DNA of 64,000 nucleotides, taken from assembly GCA_963971425.1 (NCBI GenBank), contig OZ020514.1, positions 47,831,527 through 47,895,526 of the forward strand, read 5' to 3'. The stretch is from Bryoerythrophyllum caledonicum. Its lineage: Eukaryota > Streptophyta > Bryopsida > Pottiales > Pottiaceae. Below the pieces are notes generated by a model. It saw only the letters and a list, made by a program, of their open reading frames with translations. It was not told the DNA's origin and did no database searches. This document shows, in pieces, positions 6,174 through 46,644 of the stretch. Within the stretch, counting starts at the first letter, position 1. Each line of letters begins with the position of its first letter. A program made the translations under genes and the position numbers.

Positions 6174-6470
6174 CTAAATCGGCATCCTTAAACAGGATAG
6201 TTCCGGCACTTTTCCGGAGGTCCAGTAACCGGAGTACGGTGGCATCCGAAACCTGCTGTTCCGGACTGGACAATATCCGGATCTGGAACCGTCATCATGG
6301 CGCCCAATGATATCCATACATTGTGTCAGATATATAACACGCCTGCCAGCAGAGGGCACCATTATTCTAGATTATCGTTTTCTACGCTCTTTGCTCTCTT
6401 CCACTCCTCCATGTCTTGTCTTCTTGAGATTCTGTAGTGCAGAAGTAGTATAGAAGCGAGGGACTTTGTG
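6174..6470 (+). repeat. LTR-like promoter block, copy 1 (fossil)
   Basis: GGAACCGTCATCATG at 6285-6299 is followed 32 bp later by a TATA-like TATATAA (6331-6337), then a CT-rich leader. The same arrangement (identical 15-mer, then a TATA box, then a CT-rich leader) occurs at 20733-20840. Two scattered copies of a promoter-plus-leader block suggest LTR remnants of one family. Neither end is defined. Confidence 0.4.
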
Positions 6471-6703
6471 AGGTCAGTGCGTGTAGGGTTCCGGACGCAA
6501 TTGCGAGGCGCAAGCACAACGAGAGGTGGGCCCGGATGGCGGGGAAGAAAGGCAAAAATCCAGCCGCCGGAAACCTACTACTTTAGAAGGTGGCGCCAGA
6601 GTGGCCAACCTCAGAAGAAGAGTTTAGGGTTTAAGAAAGCTATTTGGAGGTGATGGGCTGTAACGGACTTCTCTGAGCGCCGTGGGCATTCCAGAGCGAA
6701 GCA

Positions 6704-8205
6704 ATGGTGGCGGACCTTGTGGACAAGCCGCCAAACGAGTATGACGGACGCATCTGGGCGTATCTGGAAGGCAAGACCACAACAATCTGGAGAGACGCCT
6801 ATAGTCTTCAGACGCGGGTTGTCAAGGTGGCGAAGCGCGACGACAACCTGCTAAAGGGGGAGTTCCTACAGAAGGTTAACCCTATGGACGGGTACGTCTT
6901 CAGCAACCTCACAGATCCGGATGCTAGGGCAGTTGTCGCATTCCTAAACTCTACCTTCCATCCGGAGAAACCAAAGAGGATAGTGGCCAAACTAGCTAGT
7001 CTGATCCTATGAGCAATGAGAGGGAAGCACACCATGAACTAGGGAGCCTTGATGGGAGACTAGATTGAATGGATGCTGAAGATCCTTCCTAAGGCCTCAA
7101 AAGACAGCAACGCCCCTCTCAACTTATGTGGTGCATATGTACGCCAAGAGGAAGATGCTAGGTCCGAAGGAGCAAGACGAATATGACAAGCTGCTCAATA
7201 TCCAATCTTACGGGGGGTAGGAGACGGACGATGAGCAGGAGGTTTTGGAGGACTCGGAGTCGCAGATGTCATCATCCCCACTCATCGCCAGGAGATCCCG
7301 GAAGCGGAGCCGGTCAGCTCAGAAGACTCCGGAAACCGTAGGTCCAAGTCAGCCTCCGGTAGAGATGGAGACTCAAAGCCTGACCGAGGTGCCACCCTCC
7401 GAAGCACGAGCGGCCGAATCCTACAACATCGGAGTAGAGCCGGGATCGGTTTTTGCCCCGACAATGACCGGCAGCATACCGGCGGACATCTCGGAGCTCT
7501 CCCGGCATAAAGTCTGGCGGACAAGGATCCATGAAGGGGAGATCCGGGAACGGACAACCATGATCATGGCTATAATGGAGGAGGTGGGGACGAACGACTC
7601 CGTGGATCTCTATCCGCGACTCCAGCAGCTTAAGACCAAGGAGGACTCGATCCAGCAGTTGGAGCAGTAGCAAACCACCATCACCGAGACCAACGTCCGG
7701 CTCTGGATGCGAGTGGAGCAGGCGGAGGCTCCGCAAGAAACGGCCCAACAAGCAAGAGCCGAGGTGGAATCAAAAGTCTAGACCACCATCCAGGCCTTGA
7801 CGGAGGTTCGCGTTGCCCTCGACTTTTCGATAGACACCGTCAACTGGCTCTCCTCTACACTGAGAGCCTGGAGAAGAATGAGTAACTTTACAGGGGGCAA
7901 ATCATCCGATTTCTCCTGGATCACAGTTGAAAGATGGAGAAGACCTGGAGTAAGATTTAGGAGCTCGTGAAGAACCTGTTTCTCTCGATGTAGTATGGAG
8001 TATCCGCGGCAGAGTAATTCAGATCAACCTTCTTCAGTAGCGCAAGAGAATCAAGATGGTCGTCCCTAATGAGGAACAACAGGAAAACCTCAGAACACTT
8101 TGACCTAGATGTCCCCAAGTTCAACCGCTCGTATGCGGATGGCATGTACCTCGACTATGGGCACACATATTTTGACATCCACCTCTCAGCATACTTTTCA
8201 GCCTG
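6704..8205 (+). pseudogene. Unrecognised decayed reading frames downstream of LTR-like block (fossil)
   Basis: Starting at 6704, about 100 codons read MVADLVDKPPNEYDGRIWAY and onward, with FHPEKPKRI near the end. From 7245 a frame of about 140 codons is Ser/Arg/Glu-rich, with RRSRKRSR as a possible nuclear signal. A Gln/Glu-rich stretch with heptad-like leucines follows and could form a coiled coil. Codon-like composition continues to about 8205. I do not recognise the family. The position just behind an LTR-like promoter suggests the internal part of an LTR-derived element, but a decayed host gene is equally possible. Several interruptions are present. Confidence 0.35.
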
Positions 8206-9192
8206 AACCGCTCACTGCTCCAAAGAGGTTATCCCCACCCAAACAGTCAGAGAATTTAAGGTGGGTTTGCTTCTCTGAGTCTTCAAGGTCTTTAGAAACT
8301 CCGAAAAGTATGGCTCTTCCGATGATTTGTCCTTGGAAGACCACCCGAGGACCTGACAGAGGTCAAGGACACCAAGGGACCACTCTCTGTCCTCCGCAAG
8401 TAGATCAAAATATTTGGAGAACTCCATTTTCTCCCCATCAAAATTGCGAAGCTTGGCTGGTCCAACAACGGGATCGATGTAGCTCTTCACATACCAAAAC
8501 TTCCGAAAGAATGGAAACACGTTCGGAAACTTCTCCACCAACTGAGATGCTCCCTTAAGCTTCCCAGCATTTGTGAGCCTCATGGAGAAAAACTCCTTGT
8601 CGGGCCTCACAAGGAGCATATTGTACGTCGCAGAAGACACGCACTGTTCTAGCTTCCATGCCTCCCAGACCTCGCCGTTTGTGGACCCGTCTGGCATCAA
8701 AAACTTCAAGGAAGGATCAATTGCGATCAATTCTTGAAGGACAATGCGCTTCCTCTTCCGGTAATCTGCCCACTCCTCGTAGTGATAGCAGGACCCGTGA
8801 ACAACGCTTGTCCGCCGCAGCGTGACTTTTGGATACCCATTCGGGCCTTCACTGTCAACCAGATAGGTGAACAAGTCCCGTAAGTCCTTATCGGAGAGGT
8901 GGTCCAACCTCTTGAAAAATTCTCGATGGATGGAAGAGGCTCTGAAATTTTTAGCCTCATTATACATGAACATCGTGTCCGGGTTGATGATCTCGCCTTT
9001 TGTGTGCTTTTCGAGAAAATCTTCCCACAGCTTGAAAATGTCATCAGCCAATGTGATCACCTTGATTTCATTCGTGATATCTGATGACTTGTTCACGTGC
9101 TTCCCTTCCTTAGTGGGGTCGATGTTTTGGAAGCGGTTGACAATAAATTTGGAGAGTAACTGCAATTCAGGAAACCTAGGCATATCAAATAA

Positions 9193-9303
9193 CTAAACAT
9201 TATCTGTGAAAATAAAGAAGACATGCAGGAGGGATAAAATCGAAGTTGTTTAGTATCATGTGTTATCCACGACTCAAGGATAATTCTAGAGACGGAAGCT
9301 TAC
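9193..9303 (-). other. Spliceosomal intron of the NGQHS gene
   Basis: 111 bp. The donor is CG|GTAAGC at 9303 and the acceptor is GTTTAG at 9193, preceded by a T-rich tract. Splicing keeps phase 0 between exons. An alternative CACAG acceptor 11 bp upstream would put a stop in frame. The intron contains one diverged copy of the 21-bp palindrome (9263-9283). Confidence 0.6.
9263..9283. repeat. Diverged copy of the 21-bp palindrome inside the intron
   Basis: Arms TTATCCACGA and TCAAGGATAA around a central C, two mismatches from the array consensus. It lies in the NGQHS gene's intron, about 1.46 kb from the array. Confidence 0.6.
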
Positions 9304-10725
9304 CGAGTATTTCTCCTGGTCGAAAACTGCGGCATTGCCGCGAGTTGAGCCCTCTCGTTGCTGGTAACTCGGTCGTCCTGAGTTCAGCCAAATTCTTCTG
9401 CAAGTCAAGATCTGATTTCCCCATGTCGGCTGAGCATGGTCCAGATAGTTGGTGTCGTTGTAGAATTTGGAAATCTTCTACAACTTCAGAGGATCTGTTA
9501 ACCAAACTACATATGCATCCCATTGCTGCAAAACATTTCTTCGATTCTCATTGCACTTTTCGACGTTTTGCAGACGCCTGGAGGCCTCCACGCTATGTTG
9601 TCCATTGATTAGCATAAATTTGCCCTTTTTGATATCGTCCCAAGATGTAGGCTTCCGCTGAAGAGGCTCACCATCCTTATCGATTGGACACACACTGATC
9701 TTCTGGCGTTGACCGATTTCGCCAAGTTGCTCGAGGAAGTCCATGGTGCTTAACACAATGCCCTCCTCCATTCTCCGGATGACGTACTGGGCTTTTGCAA
9801 CAACGCACTGCTCGATCCGAACCCCATAAGTTGAACTGTCGAACGGGAAGCAACCCTTGCACTCCTCTCAAAACAAGCGTTGCGATTCGGTGACCGCCTC
9901 AAAATCGACCTGCGGATCATTTCGAGCTTTGTTCGGAGTGGCAGCCCCGTTATGGTCGAGGTGGAGCTTCCACTAGCCGTTGACTTCCTTTTCTTTGAGG
10001 AGGGCTCTCCAACCGTTGCAGTCGTTGTCGACGGTCTTCTTGGCGGAGCACGGCTAGAAGTTCTAGGTGCACGTGAACCCGATGGATTGGTTGCATCAGC
10101 ACCAAGAGCGCGAGGTCGACGACGTGCAGTGGCTTCGATAGGAACCGGCCGAGCTTCTAATGCTGAAAGGAGTTGATGGATTTGAACTAATCGCCTGTTG
10201 ACCTTCACAACATCATCGTTTGTCCAAGGCAAGTACTTCTCAAACGCCTCCTTTAGCGATCCTTGCCCTTTTTGAACAACGCATTCGAGCAACTCCGAGA
10301 AGTCGAATTGCCCGTGATATGGACCCACTTCGACCACAATGGAGTGGCAGTGGGGAAGATCAGCTCCGGCATCATCAAAAGCTTGAACTCCAAGCACAAT
10401 GTACTCCTTCAGTTGCTGCTCGACAAAGGTGACTCTCTCCTTTCGGTTCAAAAGCACAAATGGGACATCGTCACTGACTTTGATCGTTATTTGCAAACTT
10501 TGCGGATTTAGAAAACGACCAAGTCCGCACTACATCCGTAAATGCCCACAGTGTGTCATAGTTTTCCACCATGTTGTTGATGAAGGGGGACGGCTCGAAC
10601 GGATTTTTGAACCTCTCAATGAAATACTCGTCCGCTGTATAGTCGTAGTCATCCACAATATCCATTGGATCACTGGCCATTTGCAGAATGCATGACCACA
10701 GGGATATTAGAAATCATTTAGCGGC

Positions 10726-11246
10726 TTATCCTCGAGTCGAGGATAGAAATTCCTATTCATGACAAATTACACTAGATTGATAGTCATGTTATCCTCGAGT
10801 CGAGGATAACATCAAATGTAAAGGGTCGGAAGGTATGGATTCTTGGTTTTTTTATCCTCGAGTCGAAGATAAATTTTTCTTGAATTGTTTATAGTGTCGT
10901 GATTTGGAAGCCAGTTATCCTCGACTAAAGAATAAACATCGAATCATTATTTATGTTATGGTATTATTCGTGATGCCAGGTATTGACGTCTAAAGGGCCA
11001 ATTTATATTTTTCATTCAATTTCATTGACTGCTAACCGTCAAGTATGATTTTGTTCCATTTTATTAGTGAATTTCAACCAGTTTATCCTCGGCTCAACAA
11101 TATTGTACTTTTCGTCATGGTATTTTCTTGCATTTATTCTCGGGTCGATAATAAATAGGTAGAAATTCAATGATTAAAAGTGAATCAGACGTCGTTTATT
11201 TTACCCATGAACCACGACAACAAGTTTATCCTCAGCTCGAGAATAA
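10726..11246. promoter_or_regulatory. Array of 21-bp near-palindromes upstream of the NGQHS gene
   Basis: Consensus: arm TTATCCTCGA, central G or C, arm TCGAGGATAA. Copies start at 10726, 10789, 10852, 10915, 11083, 11134 and 11226. The first four are spaced exactly 63 bp apart with unrelated 42-bp spacers. The fifth is 168 bp further on (8 x 21). The copy at 10789 is perfect and extends to 27 bp including flanking ATG/CAT. The left arm is better conserved than the right. The array starts 46 bp upstream of the NGQHS start codon, so it sits where a promoter or operator would be. TTATCC/GGATAA is also the plant I-box / MYB-related core. Function unknown. Confidence 0.8.
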
Positions 11247-12417: not shown

Positions 12418-12621
12418 CGTCAGAACAAAGATGCCGAGTTTGAAAGACAAATGCATGAAGCCACAATACAGAGCCAGAACGAGTACATCCGCAGGCTCGA
12501 AGATGAATCTCGCTACATGAACAGGCAGTACAATAACTTGTATGATGTTTATTCAAGCGGGCCGTACTCAAGTGGCGCTGGGCCAAGTCAAAGACGTGAT
12601 ACTGACTCTGATTCCGATTAA
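12418..12621 (+). pseudogene. C-terminal exon-like fragment of an unknown protein
   Basis: After a CAG acceptor-like site at 12418-12420, about 67 codons run to TAA at 12619. They are Gln/Asn/Arg-rich, with a short amphipathic stretch (QSQNEYIRRLEDES), then Tyr/Ser-rich residues and an acidic tail DTDSDSD. It looks like the end of a transposon-encoded or host DNA-binding protein. The same tail and 3' region recur at 22.45 kb, which favours a transposon. Family not recognised. Confidence 0.35.
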
Positions 12622-12985
12622 TCATACATGGGCACGTTGTAATGTAATCCATGTGGATAATGTCTTTCTTCGAGAACTATGTTGACTATTTTGTACATTT
12701 AGAAGGTCATTTTTTAAGATCTTCAAATTGATGTTTATTAAATATTTCTACGTTGCGGCCATGTCAATGTGGATGATGAATGTACAATGCATGTTACGCG
12801 TTTCCAAATGAATTTTATTGATAATTTTTTAGTATAAGTGGATGTGTGGAATGAGAAATTTTTATACATTTCAACTTTTCATTCACCTCATATAAGTTCA
12901 AGAGTATTTCATATCATTACATGTTCAATAAATTTCTTTTTACAACCTATACCCCTAAAGTTCCTTGAGTATTTCTCACCCAAAA
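12571..12985 (+). repeat. Dispersed repeat B, copy 1 (3' region of the fragment above)
   Basis: This segment aligns with 22447-22745 and then with 23930-24025. Shared landmarks are the GGGCAC...TGTA block after the stop, TTTTTTAAGATCTTC, GTGGATGTGTGGAATGAGAAA and TCTTTTT.CAA. The 12.6-kb copy is contiguous; the other copy is split by about 1.2 kb. Confidence 0.65.
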
Positions 12986-12993
12986 GTTAAAGC

Positions 12994-14414
12994 AAGAAGA
13001 AGAACGCCGATTCGCGAAGGGGCCGGCGTGAATTAAGGGTCTATTCGTTCCATCACTAAGACCATGCCCACCAGACACCGTGTCGGGGAGGGCTTGGTTT
13101 GTTTTCAATTTTACGTTGGTGTAGTAGAATGGACATGGCCTGTTGAATGGCAATGGTGTTAATAATATTGAAAGTGTGAAATTGTTTCGATGGAGATTTT
13201 AAAGGTAACTCAAAGGATATTTATAGATGGGATAAAGGTGGTGGCATGAGCACCAACAGTGATTACAATTAGCGGGTCCATTTTCCATCCTAGGGCAACG
13301 ATGTCATTAATAAGGGGTTGCCGGGTTGGTATTCATTTATTTTGTTTTCAATTGTTTCCGGGGAGAATCTATCATTACAATATGTGAATTCGATGAATTG
13401 AATGGTATAGTCTTGGTTAATATGGTCGGGTGTAGGGTCATTATATGGTAGGCCCCAAATGCAAAGTATGTCTGCTTTGAGTCTAGCGTTACAGTGATAG
13501 CGCTAAGTTGCGCATGTTCATGGGACTTGGGAGTAGCCAAGGGGAGACCGTATTTCCTTGTGGGTTGTTATTAAAGGTGTCGGCATTCATGAGGATAAAT
13601 CATCGTGATTTGACATGGGAGGTAAATAGTTTTCGAAGTTCCCATACCGCTTTGTTATGTCTTTTGACAATTAAAGAGTGTATGTGATAGTTTTGGCATT
13701 TTAAGTAGAACATGGAGCCATTTGTCGGGGTCTGAGAAAGTGCATATGGGGCATGTTACATATGGGAATTTATCTAATCCAAATAAGAGTTGTTTTTGGG
13801 CGTTTCCCATATATCAACTACTACGGAATTTGATGACACATGTTATTTGTGAGTTTGGGATGATGGAATTCTTCCAAGAATTCGTAGAGAGTTCATAGTC
13901 TATTTTGTTGTTGCCAACCCATTATTCTATATTAGGGAAGTTTTCTTCGATTGTGTCAAGGTTGTTGTAGAGGTCTTGTTTCTTGAGATATTTGTTCAAG
14001 AATAAAACCGGCCCTTTATCGGGGGTATCCTCTTTAGAAGGCCAATCTTCTTTTTGGAAGTAGTATGGGGTAGCATGTACATGTTCGTACGAGTCTTTGG
14101 CATTTTCATGCGTTTTTTTGCGGTCCTCTTTTCCAAGTTTATTTGCTTGTTCGTTTCCATCGATATTGGCATGGGCTCTAACTTTGTGAAGGGTTGTTAT
14201 ATGTGTTCAATTTTGTAACATGTGGACCAACGACATTAAAATAGTTTGGTCGAGATGGTTATTGTAGAGGATAGGGTTTGTTATTTGGATGTTTAGTAGA
14301 TAAAGTGCATTGATACAGTCAGTGAATATGTGTGCGGGTTCGTTGTTGTGTTGTGTTGTGTTGTGATGATTTTAGTGTTTTGGGTATGGCCATAAGTTCT
14401 GCTCTAAGGATATT
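12994..14414 (-). mobile_element. 5'-truncated LINE copy (same family as 26.9-38.6 kb)
   Basis: Collinear with 26975-28590 of the large LINE: the GAA-repeat tail, the CGCCG...CCGGCG hairpin (13005-13028), the 3' UTR landmark CTAAGACCATGCCCAC, and the C-terminal half of ORF2 up to the RNase H region. It stops within the RNase H domain at about 14414, a typical 5' truncation from incomplete reverse transcription. It is more decayed than the large copy and lacks the 190-bp 3' UTR segment found there. No target duplication was recognised. Confidence 0.8.
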
Positions 14415-14783
14415 TTAGTGTGTGGAAATTACTCCATAGAGTACACGAAATAGTAGACCAAATACATTATACAATATCAATGAATACAACAAAATCTTCC
14501 TATAAGCATTTTTGCTATTCATATTTGGATGCCTTTGCATTTTAATGTATGCATGTTTGTATTAATGATTGCATATACTTCATAGCTTAAAATTGTTATG
14601 GTTCTAGATGACCGAGTAAATATGCCGTAGCAATCTACCTACGGAGTTAGGCTTTGAACTTCCTTAAAATGCTTTATAAATACTCACAAGAATGTGGTTT
14701 TTTAAAAACCTTCTACGCAATTTATTTTTTCTACTTAATCAAAACCCTACGTAGGGAGCCGATATCCACTATTAATATAATAT
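14415..14783. other. AT-rich non-coding stretch
   Basis: Between the truncated LINE and the MITE. No coding motif or repeat relationship was recognised. Confidence 0.4.
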
Positions 14784-21860: not shown

Positions 21861-22446
21861 TTGTGGTTAGCAAAGGAAGAAAATGAATCAACATTTTTTA
21901 TGTAGTTTATTTTAATTAGAACCACTATTCACAATTTCTTCATATGTTTCCAAGCGCATAGGATATTTGGAATGGAATATCCAATTGTATTTGCATAAAA
22001 TCTTCCAGACATTCCTCTGACTAGTAATGCATGTGACTTTTTTTCTTTATTTAGACTGCACGTGTAATGTCAAACTACCCTAAAAAGAAAAGTTCTAAAC
22101 CATTTTTGTGTTGCCAAAGAGCAGAGAGAAGTGGAGAAGAGGAGAGGGAGTTGATGAAGTTTGAAGCTTGGTGACCATCCGCAAAGCTCTAGGGGCAGAC
22201 GGCATGGCAGTTGACCATCAAGTGCCAACCGACTGATCTCAAGTCAATTAATCAAGGATGTTCGATCAACATTGGGTAAAACGAGATCGTTCAATTAGGC
22301 GGGCGCAGCCAAGTGCGTCTGCAATTGAACAGCCACGGATGGATGAGAGCGATCGGACGGCTACAATTGATGGTGCAGATTGCGCGGCCGTCCGATAGAG
22401 CATTATGGCCAAGTCCGTCCGCCATTGGACAGCCTGAGCGATCTCA
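21861..22446. other. Non-coding stretch with a second GATCGGACGGC cluster
   Basis: At 22290-22440 there are further GATCGGACGGC / GGCCGTCCGAT words like those at 18.96-19.09 kb. No gene. Confidence 0.4.
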
Positions 22447-22745
22447 AGTGAGGCTGGGCAAAGTCCAAGACATGATATTGACTTAGATGAAGATTAATTG
22501 TACATGGGCACATTGTTATGTAGTCTATGAGGATAATGTTTTGGTGCATGAATACTATTCAGTAAATTTCGAAGGTCGTTTTTTAAGATCTTCTAGTGGG
22601 TGTTTATTTCTACATTGTGGCCATGTCAATGTAAACAAAGAATATACATTGTATGTTACCCGTTTTTAAATAAACTTGATTGGTTATTTTTTGTATAAGT
22701 GGATGTGTGGAATGAGAAAATTTTATACATTCCAATGTCTCCAAC
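22447..22745 (+). repeat. Dispersed repeat B, copy 2, first part
   Basis: Aligns with 12571-12880, including the degenerate tail of the reading frame and its 3' region. Confidence 0.65.
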
Positions 22746-25377: not shown

Positions 25378-25852
25378 AGCTGAACACCTTCAAAGCCAAG
25401 TGACATGATAGAGGAAGCGGGAATTTGTCATGCATTGTGGAAATAGGAGAAGCATCCGTCCATGGCGTTCAATTCGGGATGCACATACAGGTTAGGTTAG
25501 GTTCAACAATTGATTTTTGTTTTTCAAACAGCGGGAAACCGATGTATTGTCTAAGCAAACGTAGAGGTTTAGATATTTACTTTCATAGCTGATGTCTCAT
25601 CCAAGAGATATGAATTCGGCGAAGGAGGACTTTTGTGGGAGTGGATGCGTTCAGAGGTTGGTATCTTATTGAAACGTTGCGTGAATTTACTAATACAAGC
25701 GATCGTACTAAAGACTGCAAGTACTACGTTTTTGAGTAGTGCATGCTAAGGAGCAAGAAATCGAGAAGCGGAAGGTGCAAGTGCGAGAGAAAGTCCAGGC
25801 ACAGCTCTATCGTGTGGAGAATGAGGCGAGGAGTCTTGACCAATTGCGCAAA
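25378..25852 (+). pseudogene. Fragment of plant RAB6-interacting golgin, interrupted
   Basis: LNTFKAK (about 25379-25399, after a TTGTGCAG acceptor) and AKEQEIEKRKVQVREKVQAQ (from about 25743) match consecutive parts of the conserved coiled-coil region of plant RAB6-interacting golgins (recalled as FKAKEEEIE...EVREKVQAQL). The second piece ends at a clean donor, AAA|GTAAGT (25853). About 340 bp separate the two pieces, and GCCAAG / GCTAAG at its edges looks like a short target duplication. The exons expected on either side are absent, so this is a captured or relict gene piece, not a working gene. Confidence 0.6.
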
Positions 25853-25859
25853 GTAAGTG

Positions 25860-26129
25860 CAGCTATTTTCAACATTTCGTACATAAAGTTATACTACAAG
25901 TTTTCTTTCCTGCATGTCTTATTTTATCCTCGCGTCAACAACATTGTCCGATTCTCGGACATGATCGGCGAGCTCAAATTCGAGGTTTGTATGTATGTTT
26001 AATGGAGTTTTTATAAGATTTTTCTTCTCCTCTTTACTATTATTATCTTCACTCTTCATCATATTTTTCCATCTATAATATTTCACCCATGCTCACCAAC
26101 TCGAATGCATTGTTGAAAAGTCTGTGTTT
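25860..26129. other. Non-coding stretch
   Basis: Downstream of the golgin fragment. A short exon-like piece (about 25922-25984, followed by GTTTGT) does not continue the golgin sequence. Otherwise AT-rich. Confidence 0.3.
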
Positions 26130-26290: not shown

Positions 26291-26560
26291 GGTACGATGT
26301 CATTCAATGTCAGATTGTTTGAGAACGTTGCTCATATAAATCCTACAAATACAACTAATCAGGGATTCTTTCTCTCCTTGGAGCTGATTTAATTGTGAAG
26401 TATGTTGAGGTGATTACAGTAATAAAAGAAGGAGATTGATTACATTGTTGTCGGGTGTGAATTGCAGGAGAAAGCAATGACATCGTTTTGGGGTTCGATA
26501 CCCTGGGTCCTTACAAGCATGACTTGAATGTCTCACATTGTCAGAATCATTTTATCTCAT

Positions 26561-26723
26561 AACACCATATTCATTATATTGGGAGATTGTGAGCCTCCCA
26601 ATTTAATACGTGTGTTGCTCTTGAGCTCTAAAATGTACCCACTATGCACATTCAGCTCGAGTCGAGCTGAATGTGCACTAGATCAAAATCATGGAAATCT
26701 CCCAATATAATGAATATGGTGTT
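26561..26723. mobile_element. 163-bp hairpin MITE with 28-bp perfect inverted repeats
   Basis: 26561-26588 and 26696-26723 are perfect reverse complements, starting AACACC and ending GGTGTT. They are flanked on both sides by TCAT, a likely 4-bp target duplication (26557-26560, 26724-26727). Inside, 26645-26677 is a second, perfect 33-bp palindrome: TGCACATTCAGCTCGA, central G, then its complement. No coding capacity. The perfect arms suggest recent insertion. Confidence 0.8.
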
Positions 26724-27252: not shown

Positions 27253-29208
27253 TTAACGGGGGTCCTGTGTATCGGGGAGAGCTTGGTTGTTTTCGATTTT
27301 GCGTTTATGTAGAAGAATGGACATGGCATATTGAGTAGCAATGTTGTTGATGTATTTGAAGGAGGTTTTAATTGTTTCAATGGGTATCTTGAAGGTATCC
27401 TCTAGAGTTTTCATAGATGGAATAAAGGTGGTGGCACGAGCGTCGGATGTGATTACAATAAGGGGATCTACATTCCATCTGAGGGCAATGATGTCGTCAA
27501 TAAGGGGTTGGTATTTATCTATTTTATTTTGGATTGTTTCCGGGGAAAATCTGTCTTTGCAATATGTGAATTCAATGAATTGAATTGTGTAGTCTTGGTT
27601 GATGTTATCGAGTGGTGGGTCATTATATGGTAAACCTTTAATACAAAGAATGTCCGGTTTGAGCCGAGTGTTGCAATGACATCTTTGGGTCATACATGAG
27701 CATGGGAGTAGCCAAGTGGGGACCGTATTTTCTTGTGGTTTGTTATTGAAAGTGTCTGCGTTCATTAGTATAAAACATCTTGATTTATTATAGGAGGTGA
27801 TTAGTTTTCGAACTTCCCATACCGCTTTATTATGTCTTTTAACAATTAAAGAATGTATGTGGTGGTTTTGGCATTTGAGTAGGACATGAAGCCATGTGTC
27901 GGGGTCCGTTGAGGGGCATATGGGGCATGTTTTGGATGGGAATCTTTCCATTCCAAAGAAGAGTTGTTTACGGGCATTTCCCATGTATTGGCCTGTACCG
28001 AATTTGATAAGGCATGTGATTTGTGAATTGGTGATGATGGGGTTTTTCCAAAAATTAGTAGAGAGTTCATCGTCTATTTCATTGTTGTTGGTCCACTTTT
28101 CTATGATAGGGAAGTTGTCTGCGATTGTATCAAGGTTGTTGTAGAGGTCTTGTTTTTTGAGATATTTGCCCAAAAATCTACTCGGGCCTTTGTCGGAGGT
28201 GTCTTCTTTGAAAGGCCAATCTTCTTTTTGAAAGTAGTATGGGGTAGCATGGGCATGCTCGTGTGGGTCTTTGGCATTTTTGTGTGTTTTTTCTCGACCT
28301 TCTTTAGCTAATTTGTCTGCTTGTTCGTTACCGTCAATGTTGGCATGGGCTCTCACTTTGTGGAGGGTTGTGATTTGTGTACGGTTTTGTAACATGTGGA
28401 CCATTGATGTTAATATGGTTTGGTCGGGGTGGCTATTGTGAATGGTAGGGTGTGTTATTTGGGTGTTTAGTAGGTAGAGTGCGTTTATACAATCCGTGAA
28501 TATTTGTGCAGGTTTGTTATTGTATTTTGTTGTGATGATTTGTAGTGTTTTGTGAATGGCCATGAGTTCTGCTCTGAGGATATTTTGTAATCCGTGGAGT
28601 CTTTTAGCTAGTTTAATTTCTTTGGTAGAATTATATACGCCATAGCCAGCTTTTTCTTTGCGCCAAGATCCCGGGCTTATTTGTTCTGGCGGTTTAAAGG
28701 AACCGTCGGTGTAGTAACTATGTATGGGGTTAAATTTTGGTGTGGTATGGGTTGGGTAGTTTTGGAGAGGGGGAGGTGTGACAGAGTAGTTTAGAGTGTT
28801 GTTGACATAGTTTAGTTTTGACCAATTTTTGCTTTTGTTTACGGTGGTTTGTGTGGGTGTTGGTGGAGCCCGTTTTGTGTATAGTCGGTGTATGTTTAAA
28901 TTGTCTATTATGGAGGTGAGTTCAGCAAGTTGTTCTAGTGAGCCAAGGGTTTGATTTTGATGATGGACGCATAATATTTGTAGTGTAGATGGCTCGACTC
29001 GGGGATTTTTTAGCTCGGGTGGAATGGTAGGTTCTTCGTATGGTAGTGTGTCTGCCTCAAATACTGCAATAATATGGGAGTCTGGAAATGGGTTTGAATG
29101 TTGGTTGTTGTTTTGGTACCAATTGTTGTTTGGTGTGATGATGATTGTATTTGTGTTATTTGGATCATGTTTGGCGGCAAGTCTAGCCCAATGTATGGCT
29201 TGTTCCAT
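27253..29208 (-). pseudogene. LINE ORF2 C-terminal part: RNase H and zinc finger
   Basis: 651 open codons. The RNase H domain shows YTDGSF (first Asp), ILRAELMAI (Glu), IFTDCINALYLL (Asp) and VRAHANIDGNEQADKLAKEG (final Asp region), so all catalytic acids are visible. Then CPICPSTDPDTWLHVLLKC, a CCHC-type zinc finger usual after RT in LINEs, and a basic tail ending KIENNQALPDTQDPR. RNase H would remove RNA from the hybrid during target-primed reverse transcription. The frame starts inside ORF2, so this is a segment, not a separate gene. Confidence 0.8.
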
Positions 29209-29448
29209 GTCCTTCTCGTTGTGGAGGTGAGCTAAACCAATACCGATCCATTTATAATCAAAGGCCTTGCCTAGGGATCCGAATATTTTGTCTCTTTCAT
29301 AAGGTGAGTAGAATTTTTTTAGTTTGGTAGGACATGTGACCGGGGAAGAAAAGTATGATTGTTTGATGTTAAATGATGAAATTAGTGAATCTAAGTTGGG
29401 AGTGGGTATTGTGTATTGCGCATTTTTTAGGGGGTCAGTTTTTGGTAT

Positions 29449-30471
29449 TCAGTATTTATATCTTTGGTATAGCCATATTAGTTCGGTTTCGAAGGGTTGG
29501 GTCGTAGGTTCAATGTTTGTAGGGGTTTGTAATGTTGTATTATATTGATTCCATAACCATTGAAGTCGAGTAACGGGGATGGTGTGTAAGTGTCGGCCAT
29601 TTTCTTCGTATAGATGTGCTTGATTGTTATCTATTTGAATTGTGTTTGAGGATGTAAGGATATCATTTTCGGGGTTGCATTCTGTTGTGTAGATGTTTAG
29701 GAGTGGGATAGTTATCGGTGGTGTTACGGATCTTGAGTGTGAGAATTGTTCTTGGGGGTGGTGGGCTAGGATGATATCCAAGTATGTTTTGCTTTGAATT
29801 TTTTGGTAGTATTGTTTTATTTTTTCGGTGTTTTGTGTGGAGGTATTGGTGTCGTGTTGTGGAAAAAGGTCTCTTTAGGAAAGCCATTTATTGTATGTGT
29901 TATTATTGAGTTGCCATTGGCATAGATATTTTGTGTAGGTATTTTATATGTTATTTGTCTCTGTGTGTTGGATGTGTTTATGGTGTATGATGTTTTTAAT
30001 GGGGTATGTGGTAGGATTTTAGGGGATGTATGTTGGGGGGCGGGGATGGTATGTTTGTGGAGGGTTAGGGGGATTGATTGGTGTGGGGATATTTCTTGGG
30101 GTGATGAATGAATCTTTAAGTATATGAGAGTATGGGTGTATGTTACAATGAGTATGACATGTAGTGGGGCATGTAGGGTGGCAAAATAGTTGTTTAGCAA
30201 CATTTAGGGCACTTTTTAATAGTTTGGATGGGGTGAAATGGTAGGATTTGAAGTCCTCATTGTTCATTATGTATATGCCGTTGGATAAAGTAATTTGGCT
30301 TAGTTCAAAAATATTTTTTGAGAAGAGTTTTTGTAGAAGTTTTTGGGAGAGTTGGGCATGAAGTGTGTTGTGGTTTAATGTTTCTTGGCCCCATAGTATT
30401 TCTAGTGATGTAGGGTTGATGAGGAAGTTTGGGATCGTACTTTTAAGGTGGGCTTTAGCTATATGTTTCAA
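29449..30471 (-). pseudogene. LINE ORF2 linker between RT and RNase H
   Basis: Three overlapping open stretches (30019-30471, 29817-30203, 29449-29781) without catalytic motifs. They are Thr/Pro/His-rich, with HIPVTRLQWLWNQY near the end. The frame changes between them show decay. Position suggests the region between the RT thumb and RNase H; it is longer than usual for L1-like elements. Confidence 0.5.
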
Positions 30472-30500
30472 TAAAAAGAATGTTCGTGTTATTGGTGATC

Positions 30501-31863
30501 TTAAGCAGTCACTTTTTTAATTTTAGGTATGTGTTCGGCGCCACCATGTTGGGCAAGGACATATTGAGTTAATCCATTATATATTTTTCCCAGTCTACCT
30601 TTATAGTTTAACGCATTTTGTAGTTGTTCACCTATACATCGGAGGTATGCGTTTTTGAGGGAGAAAGCTTCAAGTCCAAATATGTTATGTGGGAGTTGGG
30701 TTATTGCATTTGACATACATTTTGGTAATCCACATATGGTTTTTTGTATGGCTATTATTTTTTTATCAAGTTTTTTTATAGTTGGCATAGAGTATGGTAC
30801 ACCGTAGAAAATATATGCTACACTTGGGCGTATTACGGTATCAACCATTTTTATTTTTTGTTTCATGGTGGCCGGGCATGTTGTTAGTTCTTTGCATTGT
30901 TTGATGAGTTTCGTGGTTGTAGTGTGAATTTGGATTTTCCATTTTAGTGAGGGGACAAGATTTATACCTAAATATATGTATGGTTCATTTTGGTGTAGTA
31001 TGGGGATCGGTTGATTACGGTAATTAATGTTAGAGGCTTGCATTAGGGCTTTGAAAGTGGTAGGGTTCAATTTGGATTTATTTGGGCATCCGGTAGCGGC
31101 ACATTTTGGGACACCTATGTCCATACCGGCCCATTTACAATATCTATTAATTTTATTAAGTTGTATTTGTATATGTTTGATTTTGTTAGTTATGATGGCG
31201 AGGTCATCTACGTATGCGGCAGAGTTTATTGTGACTTGTGATGTGCCAAACTTGTATCCGTTATTGCCTCGTTCTAGCCATCTGAGTAGTGGTTCTAAAA
31301 ATATAATGAATAGATATGGACTAAGGGTGTCTCCTTGTATGGTTCCTCTTTGTATGGGTATAGGTTTTGTTTTCCTAAAGTGTTCACCAATATAGTAAGT
31401 GGATGACTGGGAGTAGATGTTTCCTACAACTGTAGTTGCATCTTTTGGGTAGCCAAGGTCCATCATTATTGTTAGTAGTCGGGCATGGTCTATTGAACCA
31501 AAGGCGTTTTTAAAGTCAACGTATAATATGTATACATCTTGATTAGTGAATTTTGCGTCTTCTAGTGCGGCTATTATAGTTTGTATTTGTCGAGCGGTGC
31601 TTCTCTCTGCTCTAAATCCTTCTTGACTGTCATGTAGGATTTTGAATTTTCACCGTATGAAGATAGTATGGAGGTGAGTGTACTGGTGAAGAGTTTGTAT
31701 ATAGTGTTAGCGAGTGCAATTGGCTTATGGTTGGGTAGTATAGATGGGTCACCTTTTTGTATAGTAGAATTGTTGCACTTGATTTCCATGAGGTTGGTAT
31801 TTGTTTTTGTTTATAGCAGTGAGAAAAAAATAGGAATAGTAATTTATGAAATCTTGGAGGCAT
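30501..31863 (-). pseudogene. LINE reverse transcriptase domain
   Basis: RT motifs in order on the minus strand: KGDPS..L.NHKPIALANTIYK (RT 1-2), GFRAERSTARQIQ, YILYVDFKNAFGSIDH (motif A), QRGTIQGDTLSPYLF (motif B), INSAAYVDDLAII (motif C, with Val for the usual Ala in Y-A-D-D), then YLGINLVPSLKW (motif E-like). A one-base frame change lies near 31.63-31.65 kb, between RT 2 and GFRAERS. Catalytic Asp residues are kept. Confidence 0.85.
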
Positions 31864-33551
31864 GTTTTTGATTATTGAATTTGGTATGCGGTCTGGGCCT
31901 GAGGCTTTATTGTTACCAAGATTTTGAAGGCATGTGTCATATGTGGCTTTGTTGAGGTGTTGATGTAATGGGATATCTGGTTCGCCTCTTTTGTCCAGGG
32001 TATATCCATCTAGGTCATGCCATGGGTATTGGCATACTGCACATGTGCATTTGTTTTGATGTGGTTAGTAATTACATGTTGGTACTGTTGGTCTATTGGT
32101 TTTTGTTTGTTGGTTGAATATTTCATTCGCAATGTCTTCGGGGCTAGTTAGAATATTATTAAATTGATCTGTGATGCAATCTAATGGTGGGGATTCTGAG
32201 TTCTTGAAGACTTTTCTGTTAATTTTTTTAGGGCTAATTTCATATATTTGTCTATATTTTGAGATGGCTTTTTTAATGTTATCTTTGGTGTATTTTGAGG
32301 TTATTTTTCTGGCTTGTATGTTGGCATTTTTTGCAATTAGTGCGATATCATTTATCCATGTATCATGGGCATATCCGGGGGCGGTGGGGTGGGAATTTGA
32401 GTATATTGTAGAGTAAGTAGTTCATTACATATGGGGTGGTTGCGCCATTGCGAATTGTTTTTTACAAGTCTTATAGTTTTTCGTATAACATGGTATGTAG
32501 TAAGATGTTGTTTCCAAATTTTAGAGAGTTTGCGTGGTAGATAGCCTCCTTGTTGAGATGTTCTATTTGTCAAATGGGGTGTTGGGTGGGCTTTACATGT
32601 TTGTTCTAGTGTGTTGAAGATTTCTTTGATGAGTGTATCAAGGATTTCACATGCTTCTTGCCATTGTACTTGTGATAGTTGATTGTTATTTTCAAGAATA
32701 TTTATGAGGGAGTCTATTAGCATGGATTGTTCTTCAAAGAATTTTGTGTTGAATTTTTCTAAGTTATCTTTTGGAATGGGGTTGAGTATGCGTTTAGTGT
32801 CATTGTTTAGGGTTGTGGGTGTTCTATTAATTAAGGTGTTAATTGGTATGTGTAAATGTATAGGTGTGTGGTCCGAGTTGAGAATAATATCGTTGTTTGT
32901 TGTAGAAGTGTATTGTGTATTGTTGTTGGTATTTATATAAAATCCATCTATTAGACTCCAGTCGCTATAATTATAGCCTCCTTGTCTAGAGAATTGTGTA
33001 TCGGATTTTATGTAAGTGAGATTTAAGTTCTCTGTGAAGTGACGCCATTGGTAGTCTATGTTTTGGAGAGGGGTGCTATGGTTTCCGTTTTGGTGTCCAA
33101 TTAATGCTATATCTCTATTAAAGTCTCCACACAAAATATATGTGTGGTTGGGGTTGTTGTTTATTTGAGATGTGATAGTGTTTTGTATGTCATTAATGAA
33201 TCTAGTATCTTCGGGGTGAGATGGCATATACATGTGGAGAACTAGCCATGGTTGTAGTGGATAATTAGTGATTTTGATTATTTGAAGGTAAGGGGATATG
33301 TGCATTGGGGTGGGGATTTTCTTGATGTTGCCCAGGAAAGCATATTTTTTATGTATTAGCATAAGGAGACCACCGCGACCCGGTGTGTATGGTCTCCGTT
33401 GTTGAATACATCTTGTAAGTGCATGTGTATTGTTGAAAATGAGTTTATATTCTTGAAATAAGTTTTGTATATATTTTGTGGATTTTATGGCTGATAGTTT
33501 TGTTTCTTGTATAACTATAATGGTTGGCGGTGTGTTTGTATGTGTGACCAA
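31864..33551 (-). pseudogene. LINE APE-type endonuclease and EN-RT linker
   Basis: 32352-33551 is open for 399 codons. It has IIVIQETKLS, HTYILCGDFNRDI, YSDWSLIDGFYI and NSDHTPIHLHI, the conserved E, DFN, D and SDH motifs of apurinic-type endonucleases that nick target DNA. Below 32352 the same protein continues in another frame (INDIALIAKNANIQARKI onward to about 32060), so a frame change lies near 32.36 kb. The linker has CTCAVCQYPWHDLDGY. Confidence 0.85.
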
Positions 33552-33904
33552 AGTTTGTAAGCTAGGAGGGGCGGTGTTTAGAGAGGAGGCATTCTATGTG
33601 ATTATATTTGTGTTTTCTTGATTTGAATTATTGTTTTGATTTTGTGGGCGTAGGTGAGGGGGTGGGGGGATGGGTGGATATATTCTGGTATTTGGTCAAG
33701 GCATTTTAGTGATTCTATAATTAGATTATTGGGAAGGTATGGAAATTTTTGTTTTATAGTTTCTTGTATTGGTGGTATATGATGATTGTGTATAAAATCA
33801 TATAGTTCTTTATGTATTGATGTTTTATGATTTATAATATTTTGGTTATTTTCAATGAATGATATATAAGGGTGTGGGGTGTTGATGTGTCTTTCGGGGG
33901 GGTT

Positions 33905-34975
33905 TTATAAGGTAGCAAGGGAGTTTAGTAGTGCATTAGTCCATTGAGTTATGTTTGGGCTTTGCTGGTTTAATAGGCGATTACATTCGTCTACGTGTGG
34001 GTGGATTGTAGTTACTATGGCATATAGGATATGTGGTGAGGGGTGTTCATTTTGTTGTTGTATGTATTGGATGATGTGTGGATGTGTGTTGGTGTATAAT
34101 AGGTGTAGTATATGTGTGGGTTTTAGTATAGGTGCAAATGATTGAGCAATATGTCTATATTCCGGTTGTAATTTTATTGTGTTTGGTATGAAATATATTT
34201 TGGCATTTTTTTTGTGTTTTGTTGGGTGTCTTTTTAGTACGTTTGGCATAGGTCTTGGGTTGATTTCTATGTCTCTTCTAAGTATTAGTAGTAGTTTATA
34301 GTGTGGTGGTTTGTTTTTATGTTTAATGGTTAGGTGTTTTTTTGTTTGTCTAATGTATTGTTTTGTTTTGTTTTTTATTTTATTCTTGTTTTGACGGGTG
34401 TGAGTATTATATTTTCTTTCTTTTGAGTGGGATTCCCTTGGATTAATAATAATAATTAAAAAAAATATTGGTTTGCTGTTTTGTTTTAGTTTATTGTTTT
34501 GTATGTTGTTCTTGTTAATTAGTTTGGTGTTTGTTTTTGTACCTTGGTTTGTGTTCTTCTTAATGTGTGTATATCGACTTGTATTTTTGCATCTTTTTTT
34601 ATATGTGGTGGATGTTGTGTTTGTTTGTGTGTGTGTATTGTAGGTAGTATTTTTATTTGTGTATGTATGTGTATCTATATGTATTTTTTGAGATTTAGTA
34701 TTTGTATGTATTTTGGTAATTGTTTTAGTATATGTATTTGGGTATGTATGTATGTATTCTTCTATGTATTGTATAGTGTATTTGTATTGATGAAGTCTAA
34801 TACAATATTTATACGCCCCATATACGGTTGAATGTATTTTGGTAGTTGTATTAGTGTATGTATTTGAGTATGTGTATATGTATTCTCCTTTGTATAGGAT
34901 AATGTATTTGTATTGAATATAAAGTCTAATACAGTGTTTATATGCCCCATATACAGGTGTATATTTGTACACCAC
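33905..34975 (-). pseudogene. LINE ORF2 N-terminal segment with 2A-like motif
   Basis: The first about 180 codons are Thr/Lys/Tyr/Asn-rich and partly formed from two tandem 131-bp repeats (TVYGAYK..IRLH-like twice). At 34247-34282 the protein reads LRRDIEINPRPM, preceded by KLLLI. This matches the 2A-like ribosome-skipping sequence of some LINEs (LLLxxxGDIExNPGP) but with Arg in place of both key Gly. If so, the intact family would separate an upstream peptide from the endonuclease-RT protein during translation. The segment after it is His/Pro-rich and unrecognised. Confidence 0.6.
34691..34958 (-). repeat. Two tandem units of about 131-137 bp in the LINE 5' region of ORF2
   Basis: 34691-34827 and 34828-34958 share GTATTTTGGTA.TTGT, TATGTATTC.(C/T)CT, GTATTTGTATTGA, AAGTCTAATACA and CCCCATATAC. 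They lie between ORF1 and the 2A-like segment, as promoter or spacer monomers would. Confidence 0.7.
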
Positions 34976-35079
34976 TACATATAATGTATTAGTATAGTAT
35001 CCATACTTTATACTAGTCTTGAGTGTATGTATTCGGTATATTATATGGTCAATGTTAGTTACCTTGTAGTCTTTGAAGT

Positions 35080-37130
35080 CTACAAGTTTGGCGGCTTGTC
35101 TTCAATCATAGGTGTAGCCATACTTCCCGTGATGGCTTGCATTGAAGCAAGTGCGGTGCTCATTGCTTGTTGTATGCTCATCATTTGAGCCTTCAACTCC
35201 TCATGCTTTTGATTGGCGTATTCACGTGTCTCCTTTCTCATCTTCTTGTTGCTTTCTTCCATAACCGACTCCACAATCTCCAACACGTCTTGTTTGGAGA
35301 TGTTGGGTGAGGATTCTTGTATCTTGAAGGTCTCCACCGTGTTGACAATGGCGGCATTGACGTCATCAAACAATCTTACGAATGGCATCACTTGTATCAC
35401 AAATACTCATAAGGATAGGTAGGGGAGAAAGGGTTAGGGTCAAGGCATCCTTTTTTGCCTTAGTTTCTTGTGATATCTTCCCTCCTGTGATGTGTTTAGC
35501 TTGCATGACCTCGTGGTGTGTGGTGACTTGATGTAGTTGAATCTTCTTCGCTTGTTGTGGTGTGGTGGTCATGATGAATGCATGGGTGTCATCGATGCTC
35601 TTCTGGACTCCGGTAATCTCAAACTCTTGCCCCCTTCGAAAAGTGTTCCATAGAACGTCCTTGAAAAGATTGTTGGCTGAAATACCCTTCAAGTTGTCAC
35701 TCTTCACTTTGACAGAGAGGTTAGAGTGCCTAGCAATGTTTTGGTAGCTTTTACAAACTTTTTCCAATGATATTGTGACCATCTAGCTTAAGGATGAAGA
35801 GTCTAAGTCCTTTAAGCATCATGATACCATCAATTTCGGGTTTTAGCAAATGTAGCTTGATTATTCCCACCCATACACCCTTTTTTCCCGCGTTTTTTAC
35901 ACTTAAGCATTGGATTGAGATAGGGTCTATGAGATCATTTCCGAGTTTAATGTCCATTACTTCTAGCCTCTTTGTGACCATTATCTTGATTTCATCATGC
36001 ATGAATTGGGAGGAAGGGAGTTCAAAGTGAATGGCAATGTGGAAGTCCAAGGCCAAACCTGTGGAGGTGTTGATGGTGATATCGAAGGGTAGTTGGGTGA
36101 TGTTGTAGTGTTGTCCCTCCACGTCATTTCTTGTGCTTGGATATAATAGTTGTGGGATGTGAGGAAACGCCGCCTTGGCCACCCTTGCCTCCACCGCCTT
36201 TAATCCTTTTCTTACCATGTCTTCGGCGGTTTCTCCACTATAAAGCTCTTGAAGTCCTTCAATCGCAAGAGCCTCCATGGTGGGGTAACCCAACCAAAAC
36301 TTGAAATTCATACTTACCGGTTGAGTGATGTGCGGTTGGTTTTCTTCTATCATGCCGTTCTTCATTTTTTTGCTTGTGGTAGAGGTTCCTTCGGTTTGTC
36401 TTGGTGTCTTCTCCAACACCATTGTGTCCTCGTCCACCATCTCACTATAGTTAAGGATTTTTTTGATGTTGTCCATGTGCCTAGATGTACTTCTTCTTTT
36501 AAAGGGGTTAGTAGCTATTGGGTCTACTACAGGGTCTCTACTGGTTTTGTGTAGTGTCACTATGGTTGATTTAGGGTCACTACTAGGATTTTCTAGGTCA
36601 TAAGGGTTTAAGGCGGAGGGTCGGTGGGAGAGGGGATTTGTAAAAAGGGAGGTGACAGGTCGCAGGTCGTGGGTCGTGGGTCGTGGGTCGGGGGTTACGG
36701 GTAACAGCTCGTGGGTGGAGAGCCGTAGCCAACAGGTCCAACACAACTTGGCCTTATGCAGGGCGCTTACACCAGTGGTTGCTGGCCTGATGCTCGCATA
36801 GGGCACTGTTGTGAGTCTATCGTGCTTGCCTCTTGCGCGTTCGCAGGTGGGTATACTCGGAGTTCTGGTGTTGAGCCTGTTCTTGGTCAAGGTCCGCGTG
36901 CGGGGGACGCGATCGTAGGAGGTCGTGGTCTTCTCTTTGATCTTGGCGCGTCCGCAGGAGGCGCATACCTTGGTGGTCGTAAGTCGATTTTTGGTGTTGG
37001 TTGTTGTTTCAGTTCTGGCGCGCTCTCTTGTGTTCGGGGACAGGGTGCATGTGCTCCCTGACAACGTACGTTCTTGGTGAGTGTCTAACTTGGCTCGCTT
37101 TGTGTCCGTTGCCCGGTATTCCAATTCCAA
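35080..37130 (-). pseudogene. LINE ORF1, nucleic-acid-binding candidate, with coiled-coil tail
   Basis: Three overlapping frames. 37130-35751: 459 codons with a low-complexity Arg/Thr/Pro-rich start (including GGGTCGT repeats at 36658-36700), then GTSTTSKKMK and a structured part (NFKFWLGYPTMEALAIEGLQ, VWVGIIKLHLL...LRLFILKLDG) that looks like an RRM-type beta-alpha-beta fold. 35782-35366: DTHAFIMTTTPQQAKKIQ, a second RRM-like strand-helix. 35400-35080: Glu/Lys/Gln-rich helix likely to form a coiled coil. RRM plus coiled coil is the usual build of LINE ORF1 chaperones. Frame changes separate the parts. It could instead be an unrelated gene, but the position immediately upstream of ORF2 favours ORF1. 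Confidence 0.5.
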
Positions 37131-39585: not shown

Positions 39586-42500
39586 ATGGTTTATAATACT
39601 TTTACAACAGTAAAAAATCTAGTAATGGCTCTGTATACATACCGCCCAAAAAAAGGAATAGGAAAAGAACTATCTGAGGCAGAGCTTCAAGAATTCAATT
39701 GCATAACGTATGTGATATTTAAAATTTAAGTACCATATTTATGATGTCCTTTTGTAATTATGTTAATATAGGAATAGATTATGAATAATGCATCGAAATC
39801 CTCTTCTACTACAATTGTGGCAAGGTAAAAGAATCTTAGAATGGTGTTTTTTTATATGTATGTAGAAAAGAAGACATTTGTAAAATCTAACTAAATTATT
39901 GACATGAACATAATCAATGTAATTTTAATTTCATCCTTCTTAAATACACAAAAACCAACCTCAATTCATAAAAACAAACCATATATATGTCAATTCATCC
40001 AAAATCCATAATCATGCTAGGCACATGTATAGATGATTACAAAAGTATGAAATCTTAAATTTACATTTGAAACTTATGAAATTTTATGATATATCATTGA
40101 CAAATAACAAAGAATGTTGAAGTGTTACTTTTCAATAAAATGATATTTGACTTGATATCAATAAAATCTACGTTATAAATGGTCAAAACAATGTTATTAA
40201 TATAAAATTGAATATTCTAATGATATTCCAAAATACACCTTTAACGGTTCCACTTTAATTTTGTAATATCTTCATGTACTCTAATGATTTGTAATTTTAC
40301 ATTTTATCAGGTATGAAAAAATTTTAAACATGACTAGTATGAAAAAATTGTTGCGTTTAGAGCAGTATATGAGGTTTGATATCCATATTTATATCATTTT
40401 ATACAAATCATTTTCCAAAATATGTTACGTATTATCTTTTTTTTAAAAAATTTTATAGAATTTAATATTTTAATATTTTAGCATATTGGATTATTTTATC
40501 CTGTTTCATTATTTATTTATTTGAAATTCAATTAAAAAGATGTAACACACTTTCTAAATTATCACAGGGAAGAAGAATTCATACAAACTTCTAAATTAGC
40601 AAGAAGAAAAATTGTTGATCTTGGTGGACAGGACGTGAGTCAATATGATTTAAATATAGAGTAAGAATTATAAAAAGTATTACAAAAAGTTAAATTAATC
40701 CTCTTTTGATTAGTTGTGCAAAATTTTCTTGTGATTAATAAGTTGATAATGAAAATATAGTTTTGACATTCTTACAAATATAAGGTAATCATGCACAATA
40801 AATATGATAGATAGAATATACATAGTGTAAGACTTGAAATGAAATTTAAACCAATTTTTTTTAGTACACCACATTACTTGCATCTAAGTATTTGGCATTT
40901 AATAAATCAAAATTAGATATTCAAACAATTTTTGAATTCGAAGTTCACATACTGCAGATTTTATGATATTGATGCTGAATATAGTGAGTTTTTAAGAAAA
41001 ATTGATCTTTGGGAGGTTGGTTCTTAATAATAAAATTAACGGCACATATTCATAGGATGTTTTTAGAGTTCATTTGTACTGATTTTATTGATATAAGAAA
41101 ATCAGTGTTCATCCAACCAATTAGTCATATATAATTTACATAGAATCTTTAACTAATACCAATTATAGTGTATTTTATGACCATATAATCTCTTATACCA
41201 TTGACAAACTTGTTAATATTTCTTTTAGATATATAAACATGTCTATATTGTGTAATGTGAACATATATTACATTTAAATCACATTATAATATGTATTTCT
41301 ATAATTATCTAACTATAATGTATAACAATTCATATTCTATATGTGACTTTTATTTTTTAATTAGCATATATTTGGTCTACTTAGAAACTATCCTACGTTT
41401 TATATTATAAATAAGTAGATGTAAAGTCTTAAGAGCGCCAAAAGTGCATAATCTATGTAAAATGTTGGTCATATATATTGTAAACTACATAGATCTTCTG
41501 CATAATTGGCATTGAAGTAAAGCATTAAAAATGATATTTTAAGATTTTCAAAATTTCTTTGTCTAGATTTATAGAAGTATATATATTTAACAATAGATTC
41601 TATACATATTAAATTATGAATATCCAAATTTGTTTCTAGATGTCAATTTATTTCAAAAAAAATGTATGATAGAATTTATATCTCAAGTAAAGAATCCATT
41701 TTATACATCTATATTATTTTCAATCTTAAATTTTTTGATACAGGATTCTATTAAAAAAGTTGATTATAATTTAATTAAATTGGATAAATGCAAGTATGAA
41801 GGTAATATATATTTACATATATGATTTTTATTTTTATTTTTATTTTTATTTTTATTTTTATTTTTTCTAATATAAGGAATTTCGTTTTCTAAATGAAATT
41901 ACTAATTTGAGTTCTATGCCTACAAGCTTTAATTTTCAAATTTTCAAATTTCTTTCAAATTAAATATAATTGTACAATCTTTATAATATTTTAATTTTAT
42001 TTTGAGCAAGTACAAAAAAGTCCAATTATTATTTAAAAATTAACTTAAAATATCCTCTTTTACTAGTAGCTATATTGAAACAACAATGTGAAGGAACGTT
42101 TGAAGCTGATAATTGGGAAATTAAACATTGTGCAATCAATACAATGAAGGAGAAAAAATATCGTTATCGTGGACACATTTATCATGGGCAATGGGATACT
42201 CACATTACTAAAGATGAAAATGTAATTGATGGCGGCTTTGTTTTAAAAAGTCATATTTCTAATTATATGATATGGACATCAATACTAATTTTAACATTAA
42301 TATATATTCATTTATAAATAAGTAATTTGGACTTATAGTTTTCTTACTTTTAATTTATGTTTTACAAATAATTTTTTAGGAGAGTAAAGTTGAAAAAGAG
42401 AACTTAGAAAGAAGTAATAAAGAAAACATGTCTAACATAAATAACTATTGCAATATCTTTGAAAGTTCTGGAAAGAATTCTACTTACAAAAGGTAAAATA

Positions 42501-45988: not shown

Positions 45989-46644
45989 AATGTTAATGGC
46001 ATAATTGACCAATTTTTTTTGTAAATTGTAAAAGTATATATAATCATTTATGTAAAGAGTTGGACATTTATGTCAATGGAATAGAGCAAGAGAGTGATAT
46101 TGACTTATTTATGAAATTATCTGAAGGTTAAAAGAAAACAGATTTGATAACCAACAATAACATTGGCAGTCAATTGTAAACTAAAAATATTTTTTGCAAT
46201 ATATAAACTTTCTTTCTAAATGAAAGACAATATGTAAAGAAATTTCCTACTATTTTTAATAACACAACAATTGTTTTTATAATTTTTGTAAAAAAAATTG
46301 TGTGGAGACTAATGAAGCAACAACTTCAATATTGTGATGCTCGTATGAAATATTGCAAGACTTGATTGGAAACCAACATATTTAATGCATAATAGAAATA
46401 CATCACAGCATAGAGTGAAGTATAGTTGACTATAAACATTGATAATTGTTGTATAAATTTTTTTATCAAGTAATTCATAACTGTACTTTGATTGAATGGC
46501 AATGCATAATTTGCAAGCTTGTTCTAACAAAAATCCAGTTGTACTAAGTTAATTGACATGATTGCTAATTTGTAAGAAGTGAGTTATGAGTCATCAATGT
46601 TGAACAATGACTTGATAAACATGCTTAACCCCTAAGGTACCCTG
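45989..46644. other. 3' flank of the TPR gene
   Basis: AT-rich. AATAAA-like signals are too frequent to choose a polyadenylation site. No second gene. Confidence 0.4.

Follow-up and report, generated by a model that had tools for sequence, protein, structure and literature searches.

Here, we describe an array of 21-bp near-palindromes beside the start of a broken minus-strand gene, and we tentatively regard it as a candidate array for operator control or self-recognition in a plant DNA transposable element. A symmetric dimer would read the array, and the gene of the element is now broken. A repeat search of the window (the whole 64-kb stretch of DNA analysed) found seven such palindromes of 21 bp each spanning 10726-11246, at the same positions as those claimed in the first-pass annotation, and their consensus is TTATCCTCGAGTCGAGGATAA. 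Copy 2 (10789-10809, TTATCCTCGAGTCGAGGATAA) is identical to the consensus with 0 mismatches, and its arms are complementary in 10 of 10 pairs around a single centre base. Copies 1 (10726-10746, TTATCCTCGAGTCGAGGATAG) and 3 (10852-10872, TTATCCTCGAGTCGAAGATAA) have 1 mismatch each, copies 4 (10915-10935, TTATCCTCGACTAAAGAATAA) and 7 (11226-11246, TTATCCTCAGCTCGAGAATAA) have 3, copy 6 (11134-11154, TTATTCTCGGGTCGATAATAA) has 4 and copy 5 (11083-11103, TTATCCTCGGCTCAACAATAT), the weakest, has 5; no strand is assigned to any copy. Relative to the minus-strand ATG at 10680, the array occupies the upstream interval from 46 to 566 bp. A form of the palindrome usable for genome scans is the 21-mer TTATCCTCGASTCGAGGATAA with up to 4 mismatches.

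An eighth copy, likewise without strand, was recovered at 9263-9283 (TTATCCACGACTCAAGGATAA) both by a weight matrix derived from the seven copies and by pattern search, and is an addition to the seven annotated before. It has 2 mismatches to the degenerate pattern, and more to the strict consensus on one strand. All eight copies (up to 5 mismatches) fall inside 2 kb around one gene, and no further copies at this threshold were found elsewhere in the 64-kb window. In Markov-simulated windows, the expected number of matches per 64 kb is ∼0.1 at up to 5 mismatches and 0 at up to 4. The number and likeness of the palindromes far exceed chance.

The gene that bears the palindromes runs from 10680 to 8212 on the minus strand. 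Its first coding segment (10517-10680) starts with the ATG (MASDPMDIVDDYDYTADEYF...) and is followed on the same strand by segment A (9750-10529), with a 259-aa open frame, segment B (9304-9867), which carries the box FMLINGQHSVEASRRL, and segment C (8212-9192), with a 326-aa open frame that ends at the TGA 8214-8212. Open frames this long (259 and 326 codons) have chances of ∼3e-6 and ∼1e-7 per start, respectively, and show that real coding sequence is present. The gene is nevertheless a broken copy. The frame changes near 10525 and again between 9900 and 9867, so that the final part of segment A and segment B are in different frames; a TGA (9870-9868) stands just before segment B, an in-frame TAG lies at 9480-9478, and stops in the 3' part are found at 8214-8212 and 8157-8155. 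Past segment C, coding-like sequence continues in the same frame to ∼7957, beyond a further TAG. No other copies of this NGQHS gene were found within the 64-kb window. Decayed open frames on the plus strand (6438-7885), without Pfam match, head toward the palindrome-bearing gene.

Segments B and C are joined by a probable intron of 111 bp (9193-9303, minus strand), which can be read directly as GTAAGC...AATGTTTAG with GT...AG borders; it is in phase 0 on both sides, has open frames flanking it on both sides, and holds copy 8. With seven copies upstream and the eighth in this probable intron, all the palindromes therefore lie in noncoding sequence of one gene. Two TATA-like boxes (TATAAA, minus strand), both motif matches only, were also found: one at 10888-10893, between copies 3 and 4, which would set the transcription start near copy 3, and an alternative at 11002-11007. 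As these boxes, at 10893 and 11007, are inside the array, binding to the palindromes would act directly on the promoter.

That the palindromes are kept as duplex sequence and not as hairpins came from comparing their columns. Eleven of the 21 columns are invariant (T1 T2 A3 T4 C6 C8 T12 A15 A18 T19 A20), while pairing between the arms occurs in 81.9% of cells versus 81.4% in shuffled columns, and a compensatory change between arms is found in 1 cell. Since the base changes are non-compensatory, pairing is about that of shuffled columns and several copies do not fold, it is the sequence of the duplex that has been kept. Such conservation of sequence without pairing suggests sites in duplex DNA that a symmetric dimer would bind, and favours the double helix, read by such a dimer, as the candidate mode of recognition. 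The half-sites would be about one helical turn apart, with 10-bp arms and a 1-bp centre. The opposite reading, in which the palindromes act as RNA or single-strand hairpins in translation control or folding instead of as protein sites, draws on the proximal leader, which folds far better than shuffles (z -6.4). However, the proximal palindromes alone suffice to explain this value, as any palindrome would give it, and copies 4, 5 and 7 form a poor hairpin or none on folding. With no covariation in pairing and three copies that barely fold, we reject the hairpin reading as highly improbable.

The start-to-start spacings of copies 1-7 are 63, 63, 63, 168, 51 and 92 bp, in agreement with the earlier statement that four starts lie 63 bp apart and a fifth 168 bp on, and the intervals between them are 42, 42, 42, 147, 30 and 71 bp. 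The first-pass annotation had further placed the sites on the same face of the DNA. This holds for five of the seven, whose 63- and 168-bp positions share one helical phase, but not for copies 6 and 7 (51 and 92 bp on), which depart from the 21-bp grid. For the whole array, phasing at 10.5 bp gave p ∼0.018, and p 0.058 when the period was scanned. The spacers are unrelated in sequence, as had been claimed against a decaying tandem repeat: their identity in register is 31-38%, near the ∼27% for random pieces of the region, and most gapped comparisons were non-significant. A plain tandem repeat is not supported, the units being unlike along their full length, and Tandem Repeats Finder did not report the array region as a tandem repeat. 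A CRISPR-like repeat-spacer layout, also suggested at first pass, lacks support and was rejected: the intervals are uneven, as many as 5 of the 21 bases vary between repeats, and neither the array region nor its spacers matched DNA of phages or plasmids.

The surroundings of the gene are rich in repeats. A plus-strand exon at ∼25741 matches Pfam PF04949 (E 1.3e-9), a plant-specific family, and 25741-25980 (plus strand) holds exons of a likely host gene; together with gag-like, LINE and Helitron genes, this exon points to a repeat-rich plant-lineage genome. A weak match to copy 5, spanning 25 bp at 25924, was rejected, being next to the likely host exon and close to chance level. A fold-back element occupies 26560-26720 and is centred on the near-perfect palindrome TTCAGCTCGAGTCGAGCTGAA, with one unpaired centre base; this palindrome and the array consensus have the 11-bp core CTCGAGTCGAG in common, perhaps coincidentally. 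Being the centre of the fold-back element, the palindrome with this core at 26651 was excluded as a copy. The minus strand carries a non-LTR retrotransposon (27253-35101) with endonuclease, reverse transcriptase and RNase H, and with a sub-threshold match to the PCIF1 WW domain before the RNase H (E 1.9e-6); part of it recurs at 13080-14416 as a 79% copy. A Helitron with Helitron_like_N and PIF1 helicase domains is located at 54718-59494 (minus strand). Strong GC skew extends over 28-38 kb, and the region 40000-48000, with 21-30% GC and low-complexity open frames without Pfam match, is unlike the rest of the window. A dispersed 308-bp repeat is present at 12567-12874 and 22443-22735 (78% identity); a coiled-coil-like open frame on the plus strand terminates within it, and the terminus common to both copies is GTGTGGAATGAGAAA(A/T)TTTTATACATT(T/C)CAA.

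Three other readings compete with a transposable element's own array. The palindromes could be an operator array through which a transcription factor of the host plant controls one of the host's own genes, the copy at this locus being broken. The sites flank the ATG and the TATA-like boxes, five of them share one helical phase, and their arms contain GGATAA/TTATCC, known in plants as I-box/MYB-related and sugar-response motifs. Yet sites of a host factor would be expected near other genes, and none was found in the 64 kb, a weak test given the few host genes there; moreover, the gene is broken and set among mobile elements. We consider a host operator rather unlikely. Alternatively, a DNA transposon, CACTA-like or other, could have the palindromes as subterminal repeats close to one of its ends, where they would bind transposase and have transposition as their main role. 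The array resembles in density and form the soybean CACTA element Tgmt*, one border of which carries 12 palindromes within 732 bp (PMC2613891), and on the array side the dispersed 308-bp repeat ends at 12874 and so marks a mobile-element end. This is the only element end near the gene; it is defined by the repeat copy at 22443-22735, and may or may not belong to the same element. Against this reading, CACTA ends, a 3-bp duplication and a pair of terminal inverted repeats are lacking, the other side of the gene has no matching sites and one site is intronic, so that we regard it as unlikely.

The array could also be the remnant of a 63-bp tandem repeat, of which selection or conversion kept the palindromic part while the rest decayed. 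Three equal gaps in succession, here of 63 bp, arise in 0.02% of random placements (p ∼0.0002), and the VANC targets of Arabidopsis, discussed below, arose by tandem duplication (PMC5735166). On the other hand, the near-random spacer identity and the mostly non-significant gapped comparisons speak against such an origin, as do copies 5-8, which are out of the 63-bp register. A tandem remnant is in our judgement very unlikely; it would describe the origin of the array and not its function, and can be compatible with the reading of a transposable element's own array.

We tentatively favour that reading. A multi-site operator, as the first-pass annotation had proposed, fits the clustering around one gene including the intron copy, the unrelated spacers, and the arm pairing that is not preserved. 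The minus-strand gene 10680-8212 would most likely be the gene of a DNA transposable element, now broken. A DNA-binding protein encoded by the element, perhaps the product of this very gene, would bind the sites in the promoter or leader and in the intron, and the bound protein may mark or control the element's own copies by autoregulation or anti-silencing, for which TnpA of Spm and VANC of VANDAL elements offer parallels. The sites, their restriction to one gene of the window, the arm pairing without covariation and the broken frames are observed; that the gene belongs to a transposable element, which protein binds and how binding acts on expression are inferred in this best explanation. The LINE, Helitron and gag genes that crowd the surroundings support the assignment to a transposable element. 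Against it, no terminal inverted repeats or target-site duplication around the gene rose above shuffles under general and CACTA-specific rules, and no second cluster of sites was found 3' of the gene.

What kind of protein the gene encoded is suggested by a short motif in segment B. The box FMLINGQHSVEASRRL is followed ∼43 residues on by KFYNDTN, and in the DGQHR-domain proteins compared, a DGQHR box is followed by F..(L/I)N after ∼41-48 residues. The GQH box and its spacing to F..DTN are rare in shuffles, with patterns written after the sequence had been seen. That the neighbouring gene's product may carry a DNA-binding fold had been suggested at first pass: the short GQH box speaks for it, but segment B scored no better than shuffles against profiles for ParB_N and DGQHR made from bacterial loci. 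The box recalls these folds, and a ParB/DGQHR-like assignment of segment B is a lead only. In the libraries searched, the gene product has no detectable relatives, and no segment of this single broken copy gave a Pfam match above cut-off. There was no Rfam match, and neither relatives of the protein nor the palindrome motif were found in viral contigs, phages or plasmids. AlphaFold models made without alignment (pLDDT 33 and 38) were useless, and a literature search with the arm sequences returned no evidently related work. In bacteria, parS sites are palindromic and cluster near the gene of their binding protein ParB. The array is similar in that its palindromes cluster near the gene of a candidate binder, but parS sites are 16 bp and bacterial, whereas those described here are 21 bp and eukaryotic, and the profile tests do not support ParB homology. 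It is thus quite unlikely, though conceivable, that a plant-lineage transposon encodes DNA-binding proteins of an uncharacterised family which, by means of a ParB/DGQHR-like box, read 21-bp palindromes in their own promoter and intron, a self-recognition system of eukaryotes in the manner of ParB-parS.

The nearest functional parallels come from mobile elements that encode a protein reading short repeated motifs in noncoding sequence of the element. ParB-like accessory proteins of algae have been proposed to bind their own transposon. In Ectocarpus, the element Sola1-1_Ec32 encodes a ParB-like and methyltransferase protein for which binding and modification of the element itself are proposed (PMC12477816). 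The gene described here has a GQH box that recalls ParB/DGQHR folds, but no methyltransferase domain was found, and the ParB-like assignment is without statistical support.

A second parallel is given by the targets of VANC proteins of VANDAL (MULE) elements. VANC21 of Arabidopsis VANDAL21 recognises short motifs in tandem repeats, which lie in introns and in front of genes, the VANC21 intron among them (PMC5735166), and its binding leads to loss of silencing marks (PMC5735166, PMC10398659). Both systems have motif clusters in tandem in noncoding parts, upstream and in introns, including an intron of the binder's gene, here a candidate only; in the array, seven copies are upstream, one is in the probable intron and none is in the coding segments. 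However, the VANC motif is ∼9 bp and directional (YAGTATTAY), in contrast to a 21-bp palindrome with unrelated spacers. VANC proteins are DUF1985/DUF287 proteins, and the gene here, one broken copy, matched no Pfam family and hence neither of these.

The subterminal repeats of CACTA elements (maize Spm/En and soybean Tgmt*) likewise consist of many short palindrome-forming motifs within several hundred bp, and are bound by a TnpA-like protein which the element encodes and which has a regulatory role in it as well; in Spm/En, TnpA occupies the subterminal repeats and controls the element from which it comes (PMC2613891). CACTA motifs lie near both ends, whereas the sites here are at the gene start and in the intron, with none left of 9263. 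No CACTA termini or 3-bp target duplication were found in the stretch searched, and the ends may be decayed or lie outside it. By analogy with these systems, we propose that the array may be a variant on known element-encoded self-recognition arrays.

If so, it would be a further case of mobile elements that carry a sequence-specific system to address their own copies. The sites would be unusually long, symmetric and easily recognised, so that every genomic target would be simple to find and binding could be tested. It would also open the way to a protein family that is unclassified and missed by current profile libraries.
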